A stretch of DNA of 64,000 nt. It comes from Bdellovibrio bacteriovorus (GTDB lineage: Bacteria > Bdellovibrionota > Bdellovibrionia > Bdellovibrionales > Bdellovibrionaceae). The notes under the pieces were generated by a model. It saw only the letters and a list, made by a program, of their open reading frames with translations. It was not told where the DNA came from and made no database searches. The position numbers and the translations under genes are program-made. Positions 21,966 through 33,943 of this stretch are shown here, piece after piece. The stretch covers positions 2,976,001 to 3,040,000 of the forward strand of contig NZ_CP020946.1 of NCBI RefSeq assembly GCF_002208115.1, read 5' to 3'. Numbering within the stretch: position 1 is the stretch's first letter; each line of letters starts with the position of its first letter.

Positions 21966-22702
21966 TTCAGATTCAGGCCCTGGATAAATTTTTCGGCAGC
22001 CGCCAGGTTTTAAAAAACGTGTCCTGTGAAATCAAGGACAACGAAGTGGTGTGCGTGATTGGCCCGTCAGGATCTGGCAAAAGCACATTTTTAAGATGCA
22101 TCAATGCCCTGGAAATCGCCCAAGGGGGCACCATCAGGGTCGACGGTTTTGAAGTCACAAATCCAAGTACTGATCTGAACAAGCTGCGCGCCCATGTAGG
22201 CATGGTCTTTCAGCGCTTCAATCTTTTCCCGCACAAAACGGCTTTACAGAACATTATGCTGGCACCCATGAAGGTAAAACATCTTTCAAAGGATGCCGCC
22301 GAAGCCAAGGCCCGGGAACTGCTGGCCCGTGTGGGCCTGGCCGAAAAAGCCGACAGCTACCCGCACGAGCTTTCCGGAGGGCAGCAGCAGCGTGTGGCCA
22401 TTGCCCGGGCGCTGGCCATGGAGCCGCAAGTGATGTTGTTTGATGAACCGACATCGGCTCTGGATCCGGAAATGGTCGGAGAAGTCCTGGACGTGATCAA
22501 GTCGCTGGCGCACAGTGGAAAGACCATGGTGATTGTGACCCACGAGATGGGTTTTGCCCGACAAGTCAGTGATCGCATCCTATTTATGGATGAAGGCCAG
22601 GTCGTCGAGCAAGGGCCGCCGGAGAAAATATTCAACCGCGCCGAGAGTGAAAGAACCAGGACGTTCCTTGGAAAGGTCCTGCGGTTCCACGGAACACCTT
22701 AA
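21962..22702 (+). CDS. Polar amino-acid ABC transporter ATP-binding protein (GlnQ/HisP type)
   Basis: 246 residues. Walker [11 protein letters not shown]-loop [17 protein letters not shown] typical of the amino-acid subfamily, signature [19 protein letters not shown], Walker [20 protein letters not shown] and switch His in [10 protein letters not shown]. Completes the import system of the two preceding genes. Its stop overlaps the convergent phosphatase-like gene by 4 nt, leaving no room for a separate terminator. Confidence 0.94.
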
Positions 22703-23547
22703 TACGTCTCAGGACATATCAGGCTTCTTTCCTCTGCGCTGATTGAGAATTTCACGAGGGGCTTGAAATCTCGAAGTCTTTTTCTAATCGTTTCAAATCC
22801 TTGATTGTTGCCATCGGTATTTTTCATCCAATAGGCATCCACTTTCTCATTGGACCAGCCGCAGAACTGCTTTAAGGCCATTCCCGAAATCAATCCCGAA
22901 GAATGCCAGCCGTTCCAACAATGCGCATAGATGGGCCCGTTTGATTTTCCTTTGATCCGGTCATAGACCATCGCAAGAATCTTTTCGTTCTCGCCGGCCG
23001 CTGCATACTGCTTGTATGTCAGGGTCTGATCCTGATGATCGGTATTCTTGCACTTCACACTTTTTTGCGCGGTGGAAAAATTCTCAGAATACAGATACAC
23101 CGCCGCCGAAAAATCCTCTTTGCACAAATTGTTCAAACCGGTGGCTGGCAACGGATTGGTATTGGATCGTGGCGGGTCAAAATATTTATTATTCGCTCCC
23201 CCACGATACAAAACTCCGTGCAGAACCACCCGAAAATTTCTTGTTCCCCATAGATTCGTATCACCAAGACCTTTGTTGTCAGTGGATTTTTCAGAGGCTG
23301 ATTCAAGCCCGTAGCGAGCTTGAAACTTCTTCACTTCCCGATCCAGACGAAAAATGGAAGGGTCTGTGATTTCCGGCACCGCAGGATTTCCAGTAGCGTT
23401 TTCATCACCAGCTTCGCCGTGAGGAGTCTCAATAGCCGTTGTGGAATTCCCGGTGGACAACGTAGAAACACTGCCCTTGGCACAACCGATCAGATTTGCA
23501 GTCAGAAAACAGAACAAAATGGTTTTTGACAGAGTGGTGTATTTCAT
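22699..23547 (-). CDS. Lipoprotein with a tyrosine-phosphatase-like fold and degenerate P-loop
   Basis: 282 residues. Lipoprotein signal with lipobox LIGC at residue 22, then a Ser/Thr/Gly-rich linker. The C-terminal half carries a phosphatase-like loop: [12 protein letters not shown] (Cys210). Against the family pattern HCxxGxxR(S/T) the catalytic Cys and Gly are kept but the phosphate-binding Arg is Ser. The preceding region ([20 protein letters not shown]) resembles the start of dual-specificity phosphatase domains. It may bind rather than cleave phospho-ligands. I choose ATG 23547 (GAAG 9 nt upstream) over in-frame ATG 23556 and longer frames without a signal. Divergent from the kinase-like gene. 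Confidence 0.7.
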
Positions 23548-23720
23548 AAACGTCATCTTCAAATACTTCTGTCTGTAAACACAAGTTTGCTGGACCAATA
23601 AAATGTGAATGCGAGCCCACAACATCGACATTGGTCTTCTGATCTTGTAAGTATTTTTAATTTTCTTTTCTGGATATAAACAAAGAAGGACCTGAACACT
23701 CCCCCAAATGAGGTAGTTGG

Positions 23721-25085
23721 ATGAAGCTTGCTGCAACTTGCACTTCTGCTGTTTTGTCTGTGTTGGCTCCCGTTTCCGGCGCATTCGCCGTCAATCTTGC
23801 AAACCTTCAAGGCGAAGCGCGCACAGAATATTTATCGCCCTACGGTGTGCGTGAGCTTTGTGTGATCGCCAAGAAATGGCCGGGCGGCGCTTATCGCAGT
23901 GATGACACCGGCAAAGAAAGCACTTTGTGTGGATATGACTTCTATCGCACGATGGGCCTCTGCCCCAAATACAATTCCACCAATCCCGGAGTTCTGCTGA
24001 TTGCCCCCAATGCCCAGTACAGCAAAGAGGCCATTGATGCCTCTGACTGCAACGTCAAAAAAATGGGTGTTAAAACCGAAGCAAAATTCAAACAGACTAT
24101 CACCTGCTCGTACACCCCGTCGATTCTTGCCTATTATCACATGTCACGCATCCTCGGAGGAGTCGGAAGAGTTCCGGTCTCGGTGATTCGCACCATGGAC
24201 TTGAAGGTTCACAGCCAACTGACCAGCAAGGCGGTGCACGCCTTGCGTGATTCAACGGATACTATCGCCGAGGCTTGGCGAAAGCTCGGGGAAATGCATC
24301 TGAACCCCCGCGCCTTTCCCCAGCTCACGGACACCACCTTCACGCAGCTTTACGGCGGACTTTCTGACAACGTGAAGAATGAAAATCTCTATAATGATGT
24401 CAGTGGCCGGGGCCCCTATAACAGTCGCTATCAGCGTTTCCTGAAACAAAAGCCCTTTCAGAAAGTGGCCAGCACCAAAACTCTGGCCCAAATCGCGGGT
24501 TCGGCGGAATTCACCCGGGTTGCTCAGGATGTAATTCAAATGAAAGACGTCGCCGACATGGTTCTGATCGACACCCTGATGAATCAGCAGGACCGCATCG
24601 GAAACATCCATTACAAATTTTACTGGTATTCCATCAATCCTTCCACCCATCGGATTGAACGCGCGAAATCCGAAGCGGAACTGGTGGATGGAAAAATCGT
24701 CGTGCCGCCCGAGGAAAAACGCCAGATGGCCGGACGGGCCGCCGTGGTCTTGAAAGAAATGATATTAAAAGACAACGACTGCGGAGTTATCAAAGACAAT
24801 ATGATGAGAGCCTACAGTGTTCTGGAAAAAGTCCGGCATATGAGCTATCTGACATATCGTTACTTTATGGCTTTTGAAAAATCGCTGGCAAATCCGGCCA
24901 CAAAGGCTTACTTCAAAACAGAACTGCTCTTTACAGACAAGGATTATCGGTCTTTGCAGGACAATGCCGCCAAAGCCAGAGAAATCCTGACCGGCGCCTG
25001 CCGCACAGGTCAGTTGAAGTTTGATCTGGATCTGGAAAATTATCTGCCGGGTGCGCGACCTCCGCTCACCCCTTGCAGCATTTAA
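23721..25085 (+). CDS. Secreted protein with a Fam20C-like kinase signature
   Basis: 454 residues with a signal peptide (MKLAATCTSAVLSVLAPVSGAFA). Residues 134-153 (SILAYYHMSRILGGVGRVPV) follow the helix and strand pattern of Fam20C-type secretory kinases, where the same stretch ends in VPP; 282-292 (LIDTLMNQQDR) aligns with the catalytic loop that reads DFLMGNMDR in animal Fam20C, giving Asp291-Arg292; 349-355 (LKDNDCG) could supply the metal-binding Asp. Ten Cys residues suggest disulfides, fitting an exported protein. Kinase activity is inferred. ATG start with AGG 9 nt upstream. Divergent from the phosphatase-like lipoprotein, sharing a 173-nt control region. Confidence 0.65.
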   Translation: MKLAATCTSAVLSVLAPVSGAFAVNLANLQGEARTEYLSPYGVRELCVIAKKWPGGAYRSDDTGKESTLCGYDFYRTMGLCPKYNSTNPGVLLIAPNAQYSKEAIDASDCNVKKMGVKTEAKFKQTITCSYTPSILAYYHMSRILGGVGRVPVSVIRTMDLKVHSQLTSKAVHALRDSTDTIAEAWRKLGEMHLNPRAFPQLTDTTFTQLYGGLSDNVKNENLYNDVSGRGPYNSRYQRFLKQKPFQKVASTKTLAQIAGSAEFTRVAQDVIQMKDVADMVLIDTLMNQQDRIGNIHYKFYWYSINPSTHRIERAKSEAELVDGKIVVPPEEKRQMAGRAAVVLKEMILKDNDCGVIKDNMMRAYSVLEKVRHMSYLTYRYFMAFEKSLANPATKAYFKTELLFTDKDYRSLQDNAAKAREILTGACRTGQLKFDLDLENYLPGARPPLTPCSI

Positions 25086-25867
25086 AGATACAACGGGCCC
25101 GGGGCTAAAACCTCGGGCATACCCAACAGGGTCGCCATGGAGTTTCCGAACTTCGAGAAAGAACCGCTTTCCAATTCAAAGCGGCGGATCAGATCCACCA
25201 TCCAATAAGGGATCTTCTTTTCGCACTTCAGTTCCAGAATGACATTGCATCCGGGCTCTTCAAAGGACTCCGGATGATCATAGTGACTCAAAAGACGGCC
25301 GTCCGGTCGCACACACCACTCGTTCATCTCCTGATAGCGCAGGTCGCGGTCAAAGGTAACGCGGGCATAGTCATCCACCACCGACAAATAAGCTTTGCGG
25401 CGGTACTGAGTCAGAATCACCGGGCCCACATTATAGCTCATTTTCACTCGCAGATACTCTTCCAGGTTCTGCCGGGAACTTCCCTGAATATGCTCCGGAA
25501 TTTTTCCCCACTCCAGAATTTCCGCCCAATTTTCATCATGAACCAGTGCCCGCTTTTTTCGCACAAATTCACGCAGCTTGTATTTGATTTCAAAAAAGTA
25601 GGGCGGCTTGGGACTGTCGCCATAAGAGCGAATTCGCATATTAAAATTAAAGGCATTGGCCGCTTCTTTGAAACGCAACAGGTACAGGCTGGGTGTATCC
25701 AGATAAAGACTGTTTATGGTGTAGTGTTTGTCGGACGAAACTGTGGAATAGTAGTCCATTTCGCAATAGGTTTCCACAAAGCGCGAGATGGGATCGACAA
25801 GTGCTGCCGGGATCAGATACTTCAGCTCATACCGCTCTAACGCCAGCGGTGAAACCGGGCCGCTCAC
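25082..25867 (-). CDS. VTC-domain polyphosphate polymerase
   Basis: 261 residues made almost wholly of a VTC domain (triphosphate-tunnel family). VTC enzymes build polyphosphate from ATP on the cytosolic face. The tunnel residues are all present: ERYELKY (Glu11, Lys16), MRIR (Arg78, Arg80), FEIK (Glu93, Lys95), YRRK (Arg156-157), RVTFDRDL (Arg169, Asp173), LELK (Glu212, Lys214) and SKF (Lys239). No membrane segment of its own. GTG start overlaps the TolC-like stop (GTGA); last gene of a four-gene coupled operon whose first gene, DUF4956, is the usual membrane partner of bacterial VTC proteins. Confidence 0.88.
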   Translation of the reverse strand: MSGPVSPLALERYELKYLIPAALVDPISRFVETYCEMDYYSTVSSDKHYTINSLYLDTPSLYLLRFKEAANAFNFNMRIRSYGDSPKPPYFFEIKYKLREFVRKKRALVHDENWAEILEWGKIPEHIQGSSRQNLEEYLRVKMSYNVGPVILTQYRRKAYLSVVDDYARVTFDRDLRYQEMNEWCVRPDGRLLSHYDHPESFEEPGCNVILELKCEKKIPYWMVDLIRRFELESGSFSKFGNSMATLLGMPEVLAPGPLYL

Positions 25868-27024
25868 AAGGCCACCACTTTCTGGGATTTACTCAGATGA
25901 TTCTTGGTGGGCTCAGTGGCCAGGCGTTCACTTTCCAGAAGATACTCGACAAACAAAGTTAAAATTTCCTGCTGCTGGCTGAGCAAATCAAGTTCTGTCT
26001 GCTCTTGCAGCAGACGGCCTTCCAGTACCGCTAACGTATCCTGCCCTTTGACCTTCTGGCTTTCCTTCAAGCCCTGACTGGTCATCTTGTAAAGTCCGGC
26101 CAGATTCTGAATTTGATTCTTTAAACTGACCAGTCGGTCCTTGCTGTTTTCGGCTTCCTTTTGCTTCAGAGCTCTTTTCAGAATCAATTCATTCTGTTTT
26201 TGCCGGGAAAGATCATCGGACCCCAGATGGGGCAACTGCAAAGTCAGTTCGACCTTGTAACCGATTTCATCCTCTTTGTGGGTCTGCGACACATCCAGTC
26301 CCTTCACCCATTGATCTTCGCGGCCTCGCAAAATCTCAAGTTCCCGGCTGATGTCCTTGAATTCAGTTTCTGAAATTCGCGCCGTTAAAGAAGCCTCCGG
26401 AGTCGGCAGGCTGCCCACGGCATCCACGACCTCTTGCACACTGATAAGATCAAAGCTTTCCAAAGGGTTTTCTTCCCATTGCGGAACCCAGGATTTTATC
26501 CTTTTTGCTGCAAGCTTGTGTTCCTGGGCAATTCCACTTTCAAGGCGTTTTAACTTGTAAATGTCCCCTTGAGCCCCCAGAAAAGATTTCGTCGTCGTGC
26601 GCCCGGCGCGCAAAGAAAGGCTTTGCGCCTTTAAGTATCCCTCGGACAACTTCATGGAGCTGCTTAACACGGCCATTTTTTGCTGGCTGATTTGGTATGA
26701 GATCAGATTCAGGTAACGCTCATGCAGGGCCCACGCCAAGGAGGCCTCTTGCAGCACCTTTTTTCGGGGTTCCGAATTCGGGCCCAGCTTCCATTCGGGC
26801 CACGAGCGAAACTGAAACTTCAGTCCGACTTCGTATTCATTCTTACTGCCTTCCTGTTCGGCGCTGACAAAGCCTTCCACATTGCGCAAAGGATTGCGCG
26901 AATCGGTCGGACGCATTTCCTCTTGCGAAGTGTAGGTGGTGTCGGCCCACGCCGTCTTTAATACCTGCTCGGGCGTCACCGCAAATGAAGAAAGTCCCCC
27001 CAAAAGGATCCAAGACAAAAGCAT
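25864..27024 (-). CDS. TolC-family outer-membrane channel protein
   Basis: 386 residues. Signal peptide (MLLSWILLGGLSSFAV), then long amphipathic helices in two halves as in TolC: about 100-160 (YLNLISYQISQQKMAVLSSS) and about 270-375 (LILKRALKQKEAENSKDRLV, LLSQQQEILTLFVEYLLESE). Shorter than typical TolC (about 450), so barrel loops may be reduced. It should provide the outer-membrane exit for the HlyD-type adaptor encoded just upstream. ATG 27024 overlaps the adaptor stop (TGATG) with AAAAGGA 7 nt upstream; an in-frame GTG lies one codon earlier. Confidence 0.82.
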   Translation of the reverse strand: MLLSWILLGGLSSFAVTPEQVLKTAWADTTYTSQEEMRPTDSRNPLRNVEGFVSAEQEGSKNEYEVGLKFQFRSWPEWKLGPNSEPRKKVLQEASLAWALHERYLNLISYQISQQKMAVLSSSMKLSEGYLKAQSLSLRAGRTTTKSFLGAQGDIYKLKRLESGIAQEHKLAAKRIKSWVPQWEENPLESFDLISVQEVVDAVGSLPTPEASLTARISETEFKDISRELEILRGREDQWVKGLDVSQTHKEDEIGYKVELTLQLPHLGSDDLSRQKQNELILKRALKQKEAENSKDRLVSLKNQIQNLAGLYKMTSQGLKESQKVKGQDTLAVLEGRLLQEQTELDLLSQQQEILTLFVEYLLESERLATEPTKNHLSKSQKVVAL

Positions 27025-28775
27025 CACGGGGTCCTTTTATCTGCTACAAGACTGACGACGGCATACTGACTGGAACTTTTGCTGTCAAAAACGGCGAACA
27101 TCTGATGAGTGTCGGGATGGAGGGCAAGCCCTTCCAAATGGCGCATGCGGAATTCATGCAACAGTTCGGGGGAAGTCTGTCCAGGGGATATTTTCCAGAT
27201 GGCACTGCAGGAAGCCCCCCGGCAAGAGGAGGCCAGGTAAAACGCACCTCCGTGCTTGATCAGGTCCGTAAGAACCAGTTCAACATCCTGGTGCGGAAGT
27301 TTCATTTCAAAGCGGGCGGCCAGCGTCACCTGAGCGGGCTTCAAAACCCCCTCAAAGGCAGAAGCAAAATCTGACACCTTCAGGATAATCCCTTCGTTGC
27401 GATGAAGTACGGGCCCCTTGAGCGACAGATACAGGTCTTTGTTATCAATGGCATGACCTTCAACTTCAAAGCCTTCTTTAGCCAATTTCAGATCGGCTTC
27501 ATAGACAGCTTTCAACAATGGATCCTGGGAGTTTTTCAACGCCAGCATCAGGGGCTTGCGCAAATCCACATGATGTTCAACGCTGTAGCGCAGTCCGTTG
27601 CGTTTTATCTGAGCAAAAATCTGCCGCTCTTCTTTAAGTTTTCCCTTTTTGGTTGCGGACATGGAGCTTAGCAAATAAAGGGAGTCCCCTTGAACAGAGA
27701 CCGATTCAATATCGGCCATCACCGGCAGGCCGGAAAGCTGAATTTGATGAGGCTGAATCTGCCCCTGTTCATTCATCAGAAAAAGCACCGGCCGATCTTC
27801 GGGATAGTCATCAGACACCAGAACAAATTGTTTCAGCTCAGGCACAAAGACCACGCCGGACATCTCTGGCTTGAAAGTCTCGACAATGTTCAGAGGTATG
27901 TCCATTTCACGCGGATCCTGTTGCTGGGAATCCAGGTTCTGAGCCGCTTCGTCGGCATTGGCCTGACTCAACAGCGACAAGCTCCATTTTTTTTGAACAA
28001 AGACTTTTTCGCCCAACAGGAACTCATTCGTGCGGGGAATCTTGATCACCACCTCACGGCCCCAGGCCGGCAGGGTTTGAATGCGCAACAGTCTTTCCGG
28101 AATCTGCACAATGCGCGAACCGATGCTGACCACCGATCCCCGCACGACTTTGCCTCCGGCTGAACTGACTTCCACCACCTGCCCCACGGACAACGTCGAG
28201 GACAGGTTTTCGTTGATGTAACCATTCACATAAGTGGGATTGAGAGGAACCAAAGTGATCAGTGGCGCAAAAGCCGGAGCCTTTTCACCGTTTTTGAAGT
28301 TCACGGCACCCACGGCGCCATCCACTTCGGCAAATACAAATAGATTCTTCATGCGCCCTTCGATCAAAGCCATTTCCCGGCGGGCGTCTTCAAGTTCAAC
28401 CAACAAAGGATCCGCCGAAGGAGCCAGATGCCCCAGGTCTTTAACCACCCCTGCCAGTTGCTGGCGCAGGTGCATTTCGGCATTGAGTTTGTCATAGCGG
28501 CTTTTCAGAACCCGCAGTTGGGATTCCCACTCTGACTGACCAAGTTCTGCCAGCAAATCGCCTTTGCGAACAATCTGACTGGGAAGCACATAGATGTGTT
28601 TGATTTCAACCGGACTGTCAAAGTTCACCTGGAACTCGCGGGACTCCGCCACGCCCAGAATACTGACCGGATCGGACCCCAGTACCAACCCCAGCACCAA
28701 TACCAGAACCACGGCCACGCTCCAGCAGCCCAATAGAAAACGGTTCTCGGTCCCGACGACGTCAGCTAGTTTCAC
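27024..28775 (-). CDS. HlyD-type membrane-fusion adaptor fused to a DUF3616-like beta-propeller domain
   Basis: 583 residues. One N-terminal membrane helix (about 13-34), then an adaptor module: lipoyl-like half IYVLPSQIVRKGDLLAELGQ, a helical hairpin (about 75-145) and the second half VFAEVDGAVGAVNFKNGEKA plus beta-barrel to about 270. After a Gln/Asp-rich linker a second periplasmic domain (about 300-583) shows DUF3616-type motifs: DIESVSVQGDSLYLLSSMSA, then KKGK, a later FEVEGHAIDNKDLYLSLKGP and HLEGLAL. Such a domain is not normally part of HlyD adaptors. GTG start 1 nt after the DUF4956 stop; overlaps the TolC gene. Confidence 0.82.
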   Translation of the reverse strand: MKLADVVGTENRFLLGCWSVAVVLVLVLGLVLGSDPVSILGVAESREFQVNFDSPVEIKHIYVLPSQIVRKGDLLAELGQSEWESQLRVLKSRYDKLNAEMHLRQQLAGVVKDLGHLAPSADPLLVELEDARREMALIEGRMKNLFVFAEVDGAVGAVNFKNGEKAPAFAPLITLVPLNPTYVNGYINENLSSTLSVGQVVEVSSAGGKVVRGSVVSIGSRIVQIPERLLRIQTLPAWGREVVIKIPRTNEFLLGEKVFVQKKWSLSLLSQANADEAAQNLDSQQQDPREMDIPLNIVETFKPEMSGVVFVPELKQFVLVSDDYPEDRPVLFLMNEQGQIQPHQIQLSGLPVMADIESVSVQGDSLYLLSSMSATKKGKLKEERQIFAQIKRNGLRYSVEHHVDLRKPLMLALKNSQDPLLKAVYEADLKLAKEGFEVEGHAIDNKDLYLSLKGPVLHRNEGIILKVSDFASAFEGVLKPAQVTLAARFEMKLPHQDVELVLTDLIKHGGAFYLASSCRGASCSAIWKISPGQTSPELLHEFRMRHLEGLALHPDTHQMFAVFDSKSSSQYAVVSLVADKRTP

Positions 28776-28776
28776 C

Positions 28777-29460
28777 TTACACCTCGATCACGGATTCTTG
28801 ATTCATAAAGTTCAGGCCGCGCACCGAAGAAATACGCCCCAGTTCTTCAACCAGCTCGGCGGAAGTCTGACGAGGCTTTAAGCGCACCTGATAGGAAAAG
28901 TCCAAACGCTCCCCTTGCCCCATTTCTCTGATCGTGGCCAAGGCAAAGTGGCGGCAGGATTTTCCAAGGACATCTTCCACCTCACGCTGATCCTGACCAG
29001 ATCGGGAAAGATTCAAACGCAAAAGGCCGTCAAACTGAGGCCCGGCAGCGAAAGGGGATTTCTGCAGCACCGTCAAAGCCAGGATAAAACACACCGTTCC
29101 CAGAATCGCGATGCCATAGGCATGAACTCCGGAAGCCAGGCCCACGGCCAACGAGGCAAAAATAAAAAACATGTCGCGAGGGTCTTTGACGTTCGTGCGG
29201 AAGCGAAGCAGGGACAGGGCCCCGATCATCCCGATACCGCGGGCCACGTTGTCACCAATAGCTTGCATGGCAATGGCGATGACAATCGGCAAAAGCACCA
29301 ATCCATGCAGGAAGTTCAAAGAATAAGAAAGCCCTCGGAAGGTCTTTACATAGGCCACGGCCAGGGCCGTCCCCAGGATGAAGCTGAGCAAAAAGGCATA
29401 GATGATCGAAATCCATGTCGGATTGGCGAATGATGAGTTGAGAACTGAAAAATCCAACAT
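28777..29460 (-). CDS. DUF4956 membrane protein, partner of VTC polymerase
   Basis: 227 residues. Four transmembrane helices (about 18-38, 50-68, 78-100 with GIGMIGALSLLRFRT, 108-135), then a cytoplasmic C-terminal domain of about 90 residues. The segment GALSLLRFRTNVKDPRDMFFIF is the DUF4956 hallmark. DUF4956 genes are regularly next to VTC-domain genes in bacteria, suggesting a membrane base or channel for the polymerase; the mechanism is not established. ATG start with GGGGGA upstream; first gene of the operon, with the 271-nt region up to dacB as likely shared control region. Confidence 0.88.
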   Translation of the reverse strand: MLDFSVLNSSFANPTWISIIYAFLLSFILGTALAVAYVKTFRGLSYSLNFLHGLVLLPIVIAIAMQAIGDNVARGIGMIGALSLLRFRTNVKDPRDMFFIFASLAVGLASGVHAYGIAILGTVCFILALTVLQKSPFAAGPQFDGLLRLNLSRSGQDQREVEDVLGKSCRHFALATIREMGQGERLDFSYQVRLKPRQTSAELVEELGRISSVRGLNFMNQESVIEV

Positions 29461-29731
29461 ACTCTTCCCCCGGATGCTTTCTAAGAGACGATCATTGTCA
29501 GTCTTTACCCCTTGATCACAACCAAAATAAAACAGAATGACGAAGACTTAATTGCCCCTTTCCGGTCCGCAATCCCCGACCATGGCAAATGACAAACTGA
29601 CTGCCAATTTCCGTCACTTTAGACGGAAAAGGCCCTATAACACCTCCTCGGCTCTGACTCATTGAAATTGACCCCGGCACGGAATATGAACTCTGCCAGT
29701 CGGTCGCCGAAAAAGCGGCAAAGGAGGACGT

Positions 29732-31042
29732 ATGGCTTCGACATTTAAACTTGGTATTCTGGCAGCTCTGGCTGCACCCGTTTTGATGGCCTCCACGGCC
29801 TCTGCCAAGGTTTATGTCAATTCCGTCTGCCATATGAAGGCCTCCACCGCCGTGAAGGACATCGAGGGCGAAGGCAATCTTCAGAAAAAATACCCGCTGG
29901 CTTCCATTTCCAAAGTCATCACCACCTTGTGGGCGATCGAAAAGCTGGGCGTGGATTATCGCCATAAAACCGTATTGCACCTGACCCCGACAGCCAACGG
30001 CGCCATGGATCTGCATGTGGAAGGCAGTCGTGATCCTATCTTCGGTCGCAACCTCAGCTATTTCCTGATCTCTGAATTGAACCGCATGAAGGTCACAAAA
30101 ATTGAGAACCTGACCTTTGATGAAAACTTCCTTTTGGACTGGCTGGCGGAGGAATCCCCGCGTATTGGCGGCGTGACCCCACGCTATGAAACCATCGAAC
30201 AGCAGGCCGAGGCTGTGATCAAGAATCTGAAAGAGTCTTTCTCCACAGCCATCAATCGTGCGATGTATAACAAGCTTCGCGAAAAAGCCACAAAAGCCAA
30301 AGTCTTTATGCTGGAAAAGCCCACAATTGAAGTGCGCAACATTTCCTTCCTGCCGAAATCCAACTACAAGAAAGACAAATACACCGGCAGCGTGGTCCTG
30401 AAATCCGCTCCACTGCGCACAATCCTGAAGCGCATGAACAACCAGTCCAATAACTATATTGCGGACAACCTGTACTGGAACCTGGGTGGCACAGCGGCCT
30501 TCAACACCTTTGCGGCAGCCACACTGAAAGCTGATCAAAATCAGATCGTATTCCACAATGGTTCCGGCAACAACGAAGGCACGACGGCAAAACCCGTCTA
30601 TAACGAGGCCACTTGTGAAACCATGATCAAGACCTTGTACACGCTGAACAAATCCCTGGAAGCCAAAGGTTACAAGCTGAGTGATGTGCTTTCTGTTGCC
30701 AACAAAGACAATGATTCCACCGTGGATAATTTCGGTGGTAATGCCGCAGGTGCGATGATCGCCAAGACCGGGACCGTGAACAAAGCCAAGACACTGGCAG
30801 GTTCGATTTCCACCAAAGAGGGTGAATTCTATTTCGCGATTCTTTTGCACACCGATATGGATCAAAGCAGTTCCGACCGTGGTGTAGCGGCACAAATGAT
30901 TAAAAATAAAATCAGTCAACTTATCAACAAGCGCTCCGGCCCGAAAGAAATTCAGTACACAGAGATTTTGGCGCTGCCATTTGATCAGGGTTCTTACCTG
31001 ACTGAACAGGAAGCTCCGGTCGTGACCCTTTCCAAGAAGTAA
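29732..31042 (+). CDS. dacB: D-alanyl-D-alanine carboxypeptidase/endopeptidase, PBP4 (DacB) family S13
   Basis: 436 residues with a cleavable signal (MASTFKLGILAALAAPVLMASTASA). All three serine-enzyme motifs are intact: SISK (Ser58 nucleophile, Lys61), SNN (239-241) and KTGT (345-348). It cleaves D-Ala-D-Ala bonds or peptide cross-links in peptidoglycan. It is shorter than Escherichia coli DacB (477), agreeing with what is published for predatory Bdellovibrio, where simplified DacB proteins (from memory Bd0816 and Bd3459) are secreted into prey and round its cell wall. Which of these this is cannot be proven here. ATG start with GGAGG 4 nt upstream. Confidence 0.93.
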   Translation: MASTFKLGILAALAAPVLMASTASAKVYVNSVCHMKASTAVKDIEGEGNLQKKYPLASISKVITTLWAIEKLGVDYRHKTVLHLTPTANGAMDLHVEGSRDPIFGRNLSYFLISELNRMKVTKIENLTFDENFLLDWLAEESPRIGGVTPRYETIEQQAEAVIKNLKESFSTAINRAMYNKLREKATKAKVFMLEKPTIEVRNISFLPKSNYKKDKYTGSVVLKSAPLRTILKRMNNQSNNYIADNLYWNLGGTAAFNTFAAATLKADQNQIVFHNGSGNNEGTTAKPVYNEATCETMIKTLYTLNKSLEAKGYKLSDVLSVANKDNDSTVDNFGGNAAGAMIAKTGTVNKAKTLAGSISTKEGEFYFAILLHTDMDQSSSDRGVAAQMIKNKISQLINKRSGPKEIQYTEILALPFDQGSYLTEQEAPVVTLSKK

Positions 31043-31831: not shown

Positions 31832-33943
31832 ATGCGCGTTTTATTCTGGCTGATTCTGGCTTCTTCCTTGGTTCAATGTACGTCTTTGCAAAAAAGTGCG
31901 GACCGTAAAACAGCGGCATCTCGCATGGTGCTGGATAAAAGCGGCTATCTTTATGACCCCTTGGACACCTCCTGCGACGGGTTCCCTCGCCTGCAGGTGG
32001 AAACCATGCCCGGCACCTGTCTGGGGATGGTGATGCCCCGGGATCGCGCCGTGGATCGCAGCAATGACAAAAGCTTTATCAAGCCCCGCACTATTTTACA
32101 GATTGCCGGAACTCAGGATTTTCTGGTCGTCGATATGGGCGGATGGAGCCCGCAGAACGGCCGCCTGTTCCTGCTGACTCGTTCGGGCTCGTCCCCTTAT
32201 GAAATCAAAACTTTAAAATTGAATTTGGAAACGCCCCATGGATTGGCATTGGGACCAGATGGGTATTACTACATCGGTGAACGCACCCGCATTTTCAAAT
32301 TTCATCTGAAAAACAATCAGATCACCGATTGGACTCTGGTGGTGGGAAACCTGGCACGCAAAGAAGGTTACATGCACCCGCTTTCGCAGTTTGTGTTTGA
32401 TCCACGCAACGGGGACCTTTACATCAACTCTGGGTCACCCAGTGATCACTGCGTGGTTCAGGGCACCGGCGCCTATAAATCCTGTCCGGAAGACCAAGCC
32501 CAAGGCAACGGTGCTATCTATCGCATCCCGGCCCAGTTGCTGAAAAACCTTCCTGCAGGTGGCATCAAAAACTATGAAATCACGGCCCTGGGATTACGCA
32601 ACTCCATGGCCATGGCGATTTCTGATAAGGGTTATCTGATTCAAGGGGAAAACAGTCGTGACTTTGCCGAGCTGGAGGAACCTTACGAAGAAATCAACGT
32701 CGTCGATCTGGATAACGGAGTTGGCCGTCATTATGGCTGGCCCTATTGCTATAACTTCCACGCCACTTCGCCTGAATGGCTGTTCCCGGAAAACAAAAAC
32801 CTTCCTATGCACAAACAGTTTAAGAAACCCGTGGACTGCACCCAAACCAACCCTTCCGGTATCGGTGATTATCAGGCCCCGTGGTTACTGATGCCACCAC
32901 ATGTGGCCCCTTTGCACATGGCTTATTATAAGGGCGAGATGTTTGGTGATCTCTTCGGCGATAAGTTGTTGGTTACGTGGCACGGCTATCAACCCACCGG
33001 ACATCGTCTGGTCGCCTACAACGTGGACAGCAATGGTCTGCCCCTGGCGAAAGAATCCAGCTCCACTTTCGGCTTCAATCAAAAAGGTGCCTGCAGCACG
33101 CGCAAGGCCTTTACTCCTCATGGTGGAATGGCCCGTCATGGTTCTTACACCGAAATCATTTCCAAGTGGGACGAAGTCAAAGGCATTCGCCCTAAGGGGG
33201 CTCCGGTGGCCTTCACCGAAGCTTCCGATGGATCCCTGTGGATTGTCGAGGACCGTGAAAACCGCAGCATCGTGCGACTGGCAAGATCAGCCAACGCCAA
33301 TCATCAGGAACCTTGTGACAAAAACGCCGCTGCCGCCAACGATCCCCAAGTGCAGCTTCTGGCGTGGAGATCCGCAGTCAAAGAAAGTCCTGTGCTGGAA
33401 GAAGGCTATCGCAAGGTTCAAACCGAACTGATTCAAAAGCACTGTCTGGGTTGCCACGGCAATATGCAGGCCCAGGACTTCGGCAAGGACCGCTTCAGCA
33501 ATCTCGATTTCCTGGTGAAAAATGAATGGATTCTTCCGGGGAACCTTGAGCGCAGTAAACTGTATGGCAGCGTCGCTCGCGTGGAAGGCTACACGCCGAT
33601 GCCTCCGGCCGACAAAGAACAGATCTTTGGCACTGCCGAAGGTGAACGCGTGAACAAGATCATCGCCGCTTGGGTGAATTCACTTCCAACCGATATCGAC
33701 AGCCGCTACAGCCAGTTCAAGATGGCAGACAAACGAAACATCCGCGCCAAGCCATCCACCAGCGCCACGGTGTGTGGGCAGGTGGCCCAAGGGGACATCG
33801 TGTATTTGGACCCTCGCCCGGCCACCGTGACGGCGGCTGACGGTTACAAATGGAGCCGCATCTATCTGGTGCCTTCTCACAGCCGTCTGTATAAACAAGC
33901 CTGCCCAACACCGGAAGATGGCGTGTACTATATCTCTCGCTAA
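31832..33943 (+). CDS. Lipoprotein fusing a PQQ-dependent sugar-dehydrogenase-like propeller, a cytochrome c and an SH3-like domain
   Basis: 703 residues. Lipobox LVQC near residue 16. Residues about 60-500 resemble soluble aldose/glucose dehydrogenases (GSDH propeller): LGPDGYYYIGERTRIFKF, PRNGDLYINSG, ALGLRNSMAMAISDKG, and NGVGRHYGWPYCYNFHAT. Next a c-type cytochrome with one haem site CLGCH (Cys538, Cys541, His542) and probable Met ligand in GYTPMPPADKEQ. A C-terminal part (about 630-700, RNIRAKPSTSATVCGQVAQG) looks like a bacterial SH3 domain, often binding cell wall. It would oxidise a sugar and pass electrons through its own haem. Dehydrogenase substrate and cofactor are inferred. Confidence 0.78.
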   Translation: MRVLFWLILASSLVQCTSLQKSADRKTAASRMVLDKSGYLYDPLDTSCDGFPRLQVETMPGTCLGMVMPRDRAVDRSNDKSFIKPRTILQIAGTQDFLVVDMGGWSPQNGRLFLLTRSGSSPYEIKTLKLNLETPHGLALGPDGYYYIGERTRIFKFHLKNNQITDWTLVVGNLARKEGYMHPLSQFVFDPRNGDLYINSGSPSDHCVVQGTGAYKSCPEDQAQGNGAIYRIPAQLLKNLPAGGIKNYEITALGLRNSMAMAISDKGYLIQGENSRDFAELEEPYEEINVVDLDNGVGRHYGWPYCYNFHATSPEWLFPENKNLPMHKQFKKPVDCTQTNPSGIGDYQAPWLLMPPHVAPLHMAYYKGEMFGDLFGDKLLVTWHGYQPTGHRLVAYNVDSNGLPLAKESSSTFGFNQKGACSTRKAFTPHGGMARHGSYTEIISKWDEVKGIRPKGAPVAFTEASDGSLWIVEDRENRSIVRLARSANANHQEPCDKNAAAANDPQVQLLAWRSAVKESPVLEEGYRKVQTELIQKHCLGCHGNMQAQDFGKDRFSNLDFLVKNEWILPGNLERSKLYGSVARVEGYTPMPPADKEQIFGTAEGERVNKIIAAWVNSLPTDIDSRYSQFKMADKRNIRAKPSTSATVCGQVAQGDIVYLDPRPATVTAADGYKWSRIYLVPSHSRLYKQACPTPEDGVYYISR

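Follow-up and report, generated by a model that had tools for sequence, protein, structure and literature searches.

The window analyzed here, a stretch of 64,000 nucleotides from Bdellovibrio bacteriovorus, carries on its minus strand (25082–29460) four ORFs encoding, in this order, a DUF4956 membrane protein, a HlyD-type adaptor, a TolC-like channel, and a VTC-domain protein. ORFs, Pfam matches, and predicted folds agree on this composition, which an earlier note had read from the sequence. The genes are spaced by +1, −4, and −4 nt; the second value becomes −1 if the channel gene starts at an ATG one codon inside its GTG. The near-zero spacing previously given (+1, −1, −4) is therefore retained, its −1 applying only to the alternative start. 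The ORFs of the locus include no ABC, MFS, or RND pump gene, and the absence of an ABC or RND pump remarked on earlier thus stands for the operon itself. Compared with the near relatives L031, L033, and L032, the four genes of the window have dN/dS values of 0.009 to 0.062, pairs with saturated dS being omitted. All four are under strong purifying selection. Together with a gene order recurring in dozens of genomes, these values argue against a chance arrangement, and it is well supported that the four genes act as a unit.

Proteins encoded at the locus and flanking genes

The first gene (28777–29460, minus strand) encodes a DUF4956 protein of 227 aa (Pfam PF16316, 54.6 bits versus a cutoff of 30.6) with hydropathy peaks at residues 17–35, 50–68, and 114–132. 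Two arginines, R86 and R88, are invariant among 16 DUF4956 proteins from both locus types. As the eukaryotic VTC channel is lined with basic residues (PMC9911596), this conservation would, by analogy, be compatible with the handling of a polyanion by DUF4956, without being a proof of it.

The adaptor gene (27024–28775, minus strand) has a GTG start and encodes 583 aa, with a modest Pfam match to HlyD_3 (26.2 bits versus a cutoff of 22.2). In the AlphaFold model (pLDDT 83.5, pTM 0.53), a membrane helix at residues 9–33 is followed by a barrel-sandwich with a short hairpin and by a beta-barrel, the predicted features of a HlyD-type adaptor. This body, about residues 35–262 (27990–28673, minus strand), matches MacA, EmrA, and MexA in Foldseek searches, and its sequence profile also points to MacA and EmrA. 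The C-terminal part, about residues 282–581 (27033–27932, minus strand), is predicted to form a periplasmic beta-propeller, an extra domain overlooked in the earlier note. According to VIA-align, it best matches the C-domain of YjiK (Z 20.2, rmsd 3.3, 223 aligned residues), and other propellers are matched as well. Weak Pfam matches of this region to DUF3616 and DUF6910 are superseded by the fold result. The propeller resembles apyrase/SCAN in fold only, and we do not claim nucleotidase activity for it. Judged by their length, the Bacteroidota adaptors described below have no propeller. Several VTC-adjacent adaptors of Bdellovibrionota (L047/L211, L204, and L205), 280–345 aa long, also apparently lack it. 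The propeller may be dispensable for the partnership with VTC; a broken frame in L204 and L205 may be involved instead.

The third gene (25864–27027, minus strand; 387 aa) has no Pfam match, and a sequence search with a TolC-like profile retrieved no PDB relative. Its AlphaFold model (mean pLDDT 83.2) contains two repeats of a beta-hairpin and long helices and matches TolC, OprM, and CusC in Foldseek with E values down to 2.6e-12 at about 8–14% identity. The protein is assigned to the TolC family of outer-membrane channels by predicted fold alone.

The last gene (25082–25867, minus strand) encodes a VTC-domain protein of 261 aa (Pfam PF09359, 177 bits versus a cutoff of 23) without membrane segment. 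In a PDB profile search, yeast Vtc4 is the closest match (E 1.4e-22), ahead of Vtc2 and Vtc3. Tunnel residues were mapped to Vtc4 through this profile alignment. Twelve positions (R12, K16, R78, R80, E93, K95, K104, R157, R169, E212, K214, and K239) are invariant among 28 Bdellovibrionota VTC proteins, in line with the earlier statement that the tunnel is intact, and R106 is kept in at least 90% of the 28. The R-x-E-x-K pattern also occurs in the Bacteroidota VTC proteins inspected. Since its closest match is the catalytic Vtc4 and its tunnel residues are conserved, the VTC protein is probably a polyphosphate polymerase. The same genome also encodes PPK1.

A divergent intergenic region of 271 bp (29461–29731) separates the operon from the orthologue of Bd0816 (29732–31042, plus strand), which lies outside the operon and matches PDB entry 5cer (Bd0816) with an E value of 4.3e-253, ahead of Bd3459. 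Bd0816 is a DD-endopeptidase/carboxypeptidase acting on prey peptidoglycan, a prey-rounding enzyme. Bd0816 is specifically upregulated 15–30 minutes into prey invasion (PMC3276566), by 5.9-fold (PMC2797640). Conservation of the divergent region extends to the nearest relatives, L031 and L033; because the neighbor was seen in these alone, its linkage is only a lead toward a role in predation. Divergence from a gene expressed during invasion opens such a role to testing. We found no mention of the HD100 locus tags Bd0812–Bd0815 in the literature searched, and the main text of a 2025 predation proteome does not name Bd0811–Bd0815. Farther out in the window, a long minus-strand ORF (22699–23784) overlaps the start of a plus-strand gene at 23721 and has a weak, sub-threshold match to tyrosine phosphatases (17 bits versus a cutoff of 27). 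A plus-strand gene (31832–33943) encodes a lipoprotein-like protein of 703 aa with a glucose/sorbosone dehydrogenase domain and weaker cytochrome-c-like and SH3-like matches.

Distribution in Bdellovibrionota and Bacteroidota

Of the 144 genomes surveyed from the class, 37 contain VTC. The neighborhoods of VTC and adaptor genes repeatedly show DUF4956, adaptor, TolC, and VTC in this order, most of the genes lying only a few bases apart. Among the 37 adaptor loci of the phylum, VTC lies downstream in 32, the contig end cuts four, and VTC is absent from one (L198), so that 32 of the 33 uncut loci have it. At two of the adaptor loci (L205 and L206), the TolC profile does not recognize the gene that lies between those for adaptor and VTC. 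In the genus, 15 of 24 genomes have both adaptor and VTC and eight have neither; the single mismatch (G019) has a contig that stops inside TolC. Adaptor and VTC are thus present or absent together within the genus, and the linkage across other bdellovibrios, on which the earlier proposal had been made to depend, is borne out. As the operon is absent from eight of the 24 genomes, the lifestyle of the genus does not depend on it.

Three unusual arrangements were encountered in these surveys. A 357-aa ORF (L069:7795–8868, genome G118) matches the adaptor body and the C-terminal part of VTC, with TolC missing in between; it reflects a deletion, a gene fusion, or an error of assembly, and was left out of the counts. 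At two Bdellovibrionota loci (L058:4341–8558 and L059:4182–8528), the DUF4956 gene overlaps another whose match to CYTH, a tunnel enzyme, is below threshold; VTC and an arylsulfotransferase-like gene lie divergently to this pair. Finally, at L061:7999–12301 and L062:7673–12235, VTC and DUF4956 have as neighbor a gene encoding about 750 aa. The L061 gene matches MMPL, a small RND-type transporter, and that of L062 is alike in length and place. It is possible that this MMPL-like gene is a pump partner of the VTC–DUF4956 pair at these loci.

By an adaptor profile scan of GTDB contigs and genome surveys, we identified DUF4956–adaptor–TolC triads in Bacteroidota as well: in 52 of 398 genomes sampled from one order (13%) and in nine of 395 sampled from the class to which that order belongs. 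At 50 such loci, TolC follows the adaptor in all cases and DUF4956 precedes it in 47. Conversely, VTC is adjacent to none of the 50 triads, a difference from Bdellovibrionota with a Fisher p of about 3e-22 when related genomes are counted as independent. It occurs somewhere in 19 of the 48 triad-bearing genomes searched, many of them incomplete, and most triad-bearing Bacteroidota seem to manage without it.

Clustering of the genes around the triads revealed CotH as the only neighbor family recurring at a fixed place. Regulator-like, ABC-like, and one more family, as read from their sequences, recur at scattered places; neither a pump family nor another biosynthetic gene recurs next to the triad. 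At 16 Bacteroidota triad loci, CotH is encoded on the same strand no more than 6 kb away, and in genome G169 the sole CotH found adjoins the triad. All 15 triad-linked CotH proteins analyzed (14 loci) carry a lamin-tail domain, and 14 of the 15 a type IX secretion sorting domain. At six Bacteroidota loci with VTC and DUF4956 and without adaptor and TolC, the proteins occupying the place of CotH carry a membrane segment at the N terminus and neither lamin-tail nor type IX domain. One of them has a lipobox-like cysteine, and that of L134 has no significant CotH match. This CotH variant had been overlooked in the earlier note. A pattern suggests itself, noticed post hoc in few loci of a lineage where many CotH may carry such tails: an inner-membrane CotH goes with the lack of adaptor and TolC, and a surface-secreted CotH with their presence. 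It would fit the hypothesis that a phosphoryl donor is supplied to the compartment of the partner.

In quick, midpoint-rooted trees, triad adaptors from the two phyla group together, separate from RND-linked adaptors (SH-aLRT 100), and the DUF4956 proteins of the triads form one clade apart from those of VTC–CotH loci (support 99). The RND-linked adaptors (L084–L110) came from the adaptor scan and lie beside genes of RND length, two of which were read directly; given these neighbors and their separate tree group, they were set apart from the triads. According to the adaptor grouping and the DUF4956 clade, the module was apparently inherited as a whole, DUF4956 being the inner-membrane member that stays constant.

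A candidate envelope-spanning conduit and its alternatives

We hold with moderate confidence that the triad is a tripartite conduit built on DUF4956 instead of a known pump, that VTC feeds it in Bdellovibrionota, and that polyphosphate is probably brought to the surface. The cytosolic VTC protein would make polyphosphate from ATP, as suggested by its homology to Vtc4 and its conserved tunnel residues. DUF4956, to judge from its near-invariant linkage and co-inheritance, would be the inner-membrane element in place of a pump, and the folds of the two other proteins suggest that the adaptor would span the periplasm and TolC open the outer membrane. We infer that polyphosphate is the cargo; it would reach the cell surface or the exterior, much as the eukaryotic VTC feeds polyphosphate into its own membrane channel. 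In yeast VTC, synthesis is coupled to translocation through the channel (PMC9911596), and by analogy the polymer could be moved by the growth of the chain and its discharge. The constant part would be the DUF4956–adaptor–TolC triad, with VTC as partner in Bdellovibrionota and surface CotH as a frequent one in Bacteroidota.

The earlier proposal of a trans-envelope polyphosphate operon is supported in its composition, its intact VTC tunnel, its linkage, and the lack of a pump in the operon, as well as by an adaptor group distinct from RND-linked adaptors. The idea that polymerization itself pushes the polymer out has evidence against it as a general model: the Bacteroidota triads have no adjacent VTC, and often none is detected in the genome. 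As VTC is not obligatory there, its polymerization is not the driving force in every case, and the absence of adjacent VTC at all 50 loci means that polyphosphate may not be the cargo of the Bacteroidota triads.

These same triads without VTC favor the view that the triad exports another cargo, such as a polysaccharide, lipid, nucleotide, or small molecule, and that VTC is a cytosolic regulator or energizer that makes or binds polyphosphate without its export. Elsewhere, VTC–DUF4956 loci have polysaccharide-type genes nearby (L064 and L066) or lie in pel clusters (PMC7112168), which points in the same direction. However, nearly every Bdellovibrionota triad has VTC in its operon and loses it only together with the other genes, and the triad has no other biosynthetic gene as a recurrent neighbor; we regard this explanation as possible and rather doubtful. 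It is unlikely that adaptor and TolC serve an ABC, RND, or MFS pump encoded elsewhere, with DUF4956 as an MgtC-type accessory or regulator. MacA, EmrA, and MexA, whose folds the adaptor body shares, all serve known pumps, and DUF4956 has a sub-threshold match to MgtC (25.2 bits versus a cutoff of 31.4). Against this, DUF4956 stands directly before the adaptor in 47/50 Bacteroidota loci and nearly all Bdellovibrionota loci, no pump family recurs next to the adaptor, and the adaptor group is distinct from that of RND-linked adaptors.

The enzyme itself might be a phosphohydrolase or another tunnel enzyme, the operon then handling phosphate compounds otherwise. Its acidic residue E14, a threonine at the Vtc4 equivalent, matches Glu-4 of the hydrolytic tunnel enzyme AtTTM3, which belongs to the hydrolytic second metal site (PMC4641920), and we found no characterized bacterial VTC protein in the literature searched. 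The remainder of the AtTTM3 acidic patch is not seen, however: in the alignment, Glu-2 and Glu-171 correspond to R12 and K214, the residue types that the polymerase also has there. Moreover, the catalytic lysine K458 of Vtc4 has a counterpart in K239, and R78, R80, and E212 correspond to Vtc4 R264, R266, and E426, the mutation of which inactivates yeast VTC (PMC9911596). A hydrolase therefore appears distinctly improbable.

DUF4956 also partners VTC at loci that lack adaptor and TolC. With the conduit as the preferred reading, a broader proposal, which we advance tentatively, is that DUF4956 could be the core of an unrecognized class of trans-envelope transporters for polyphosphate or another phosphoryl donor. 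VTC would feed DUF4956 where present; the path would end with DUF4956 at the inner membrane where CotH is anchored there, and adaptor and TolC would lengthen it where a CotH kinase or the product acts at the cell surface. If true, this would add a further tripartite kind beside those of ABC, RND, and MFS pumps, and a supply line carrying phosphate energy outward. DUF4956 is little mentioned in the portions of the literature covered by our search, where no tie to an adaptor or TolC was found; it now gains a testable role.

Comparison with known systems

The set VTC–DUF4956–CotH is known already: these are accessory genes of Gram-positive pel clusters, in which VTC was called a poly-phosphate polymerase (PMC7112168). 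The trio also occurs in other Bdellovibrionota and in Bacteroidota. The operon shares with the pel clusters the association of VTC with DUF4956. However, pel clusters have no adaptor or TolC, the whole genome of the window has no CotH, and the DUF4956 of the triads belongs to a separate clade. The composition DUF4956–adaptor–TolC–VTC is undescribed in the open-access journal literature searched, in agreement with the earlier note, which knew of no such system.

With the HlyD/MacA/EmrA–TolC export systems of ABC, MFS, and RND type, the operon shares the adaptor body and the TolC fold. It differs from them by the lack of a pump gene, by DUF4956 in the pump position, by a separate adaptor group, and by the extra propeller. 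The triad would therefore be a tripartite system, present in two phyla, whose inner-membrane part is of no known pump type. The likeness to the yeast VTC complex (Vtc1/Vtc3/Vtc4) lies in the Vtc4-related tunnel polymerase domain and in the pairing of a polymerase with a membrane protein; the coupling of synthesis and translocation would be a shared principle (PMC9911596). Unlike yeast VTC, the operon has a single inner-membrane partner of another family, DUF4956 instead of the VTC membrane domain, has no SPX domain, and adds two parts spanning periplasm and outer membrane.

Surface polyphosphate on a Gram-negative bacterium would be the same end product as in the gonococcal polyphosphate pseudo-capsule. 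The gonococcal polymer depends on PPK1 and PPK2, not on VTC, and other, unnamed gene products may aid its translocation across the outer membrane (PMC10237660, 2023). The presence of the operon in Bdellovibrio, which is amenable to gene deletion, makes the passage of polyphosphate across this membrane directly testable.
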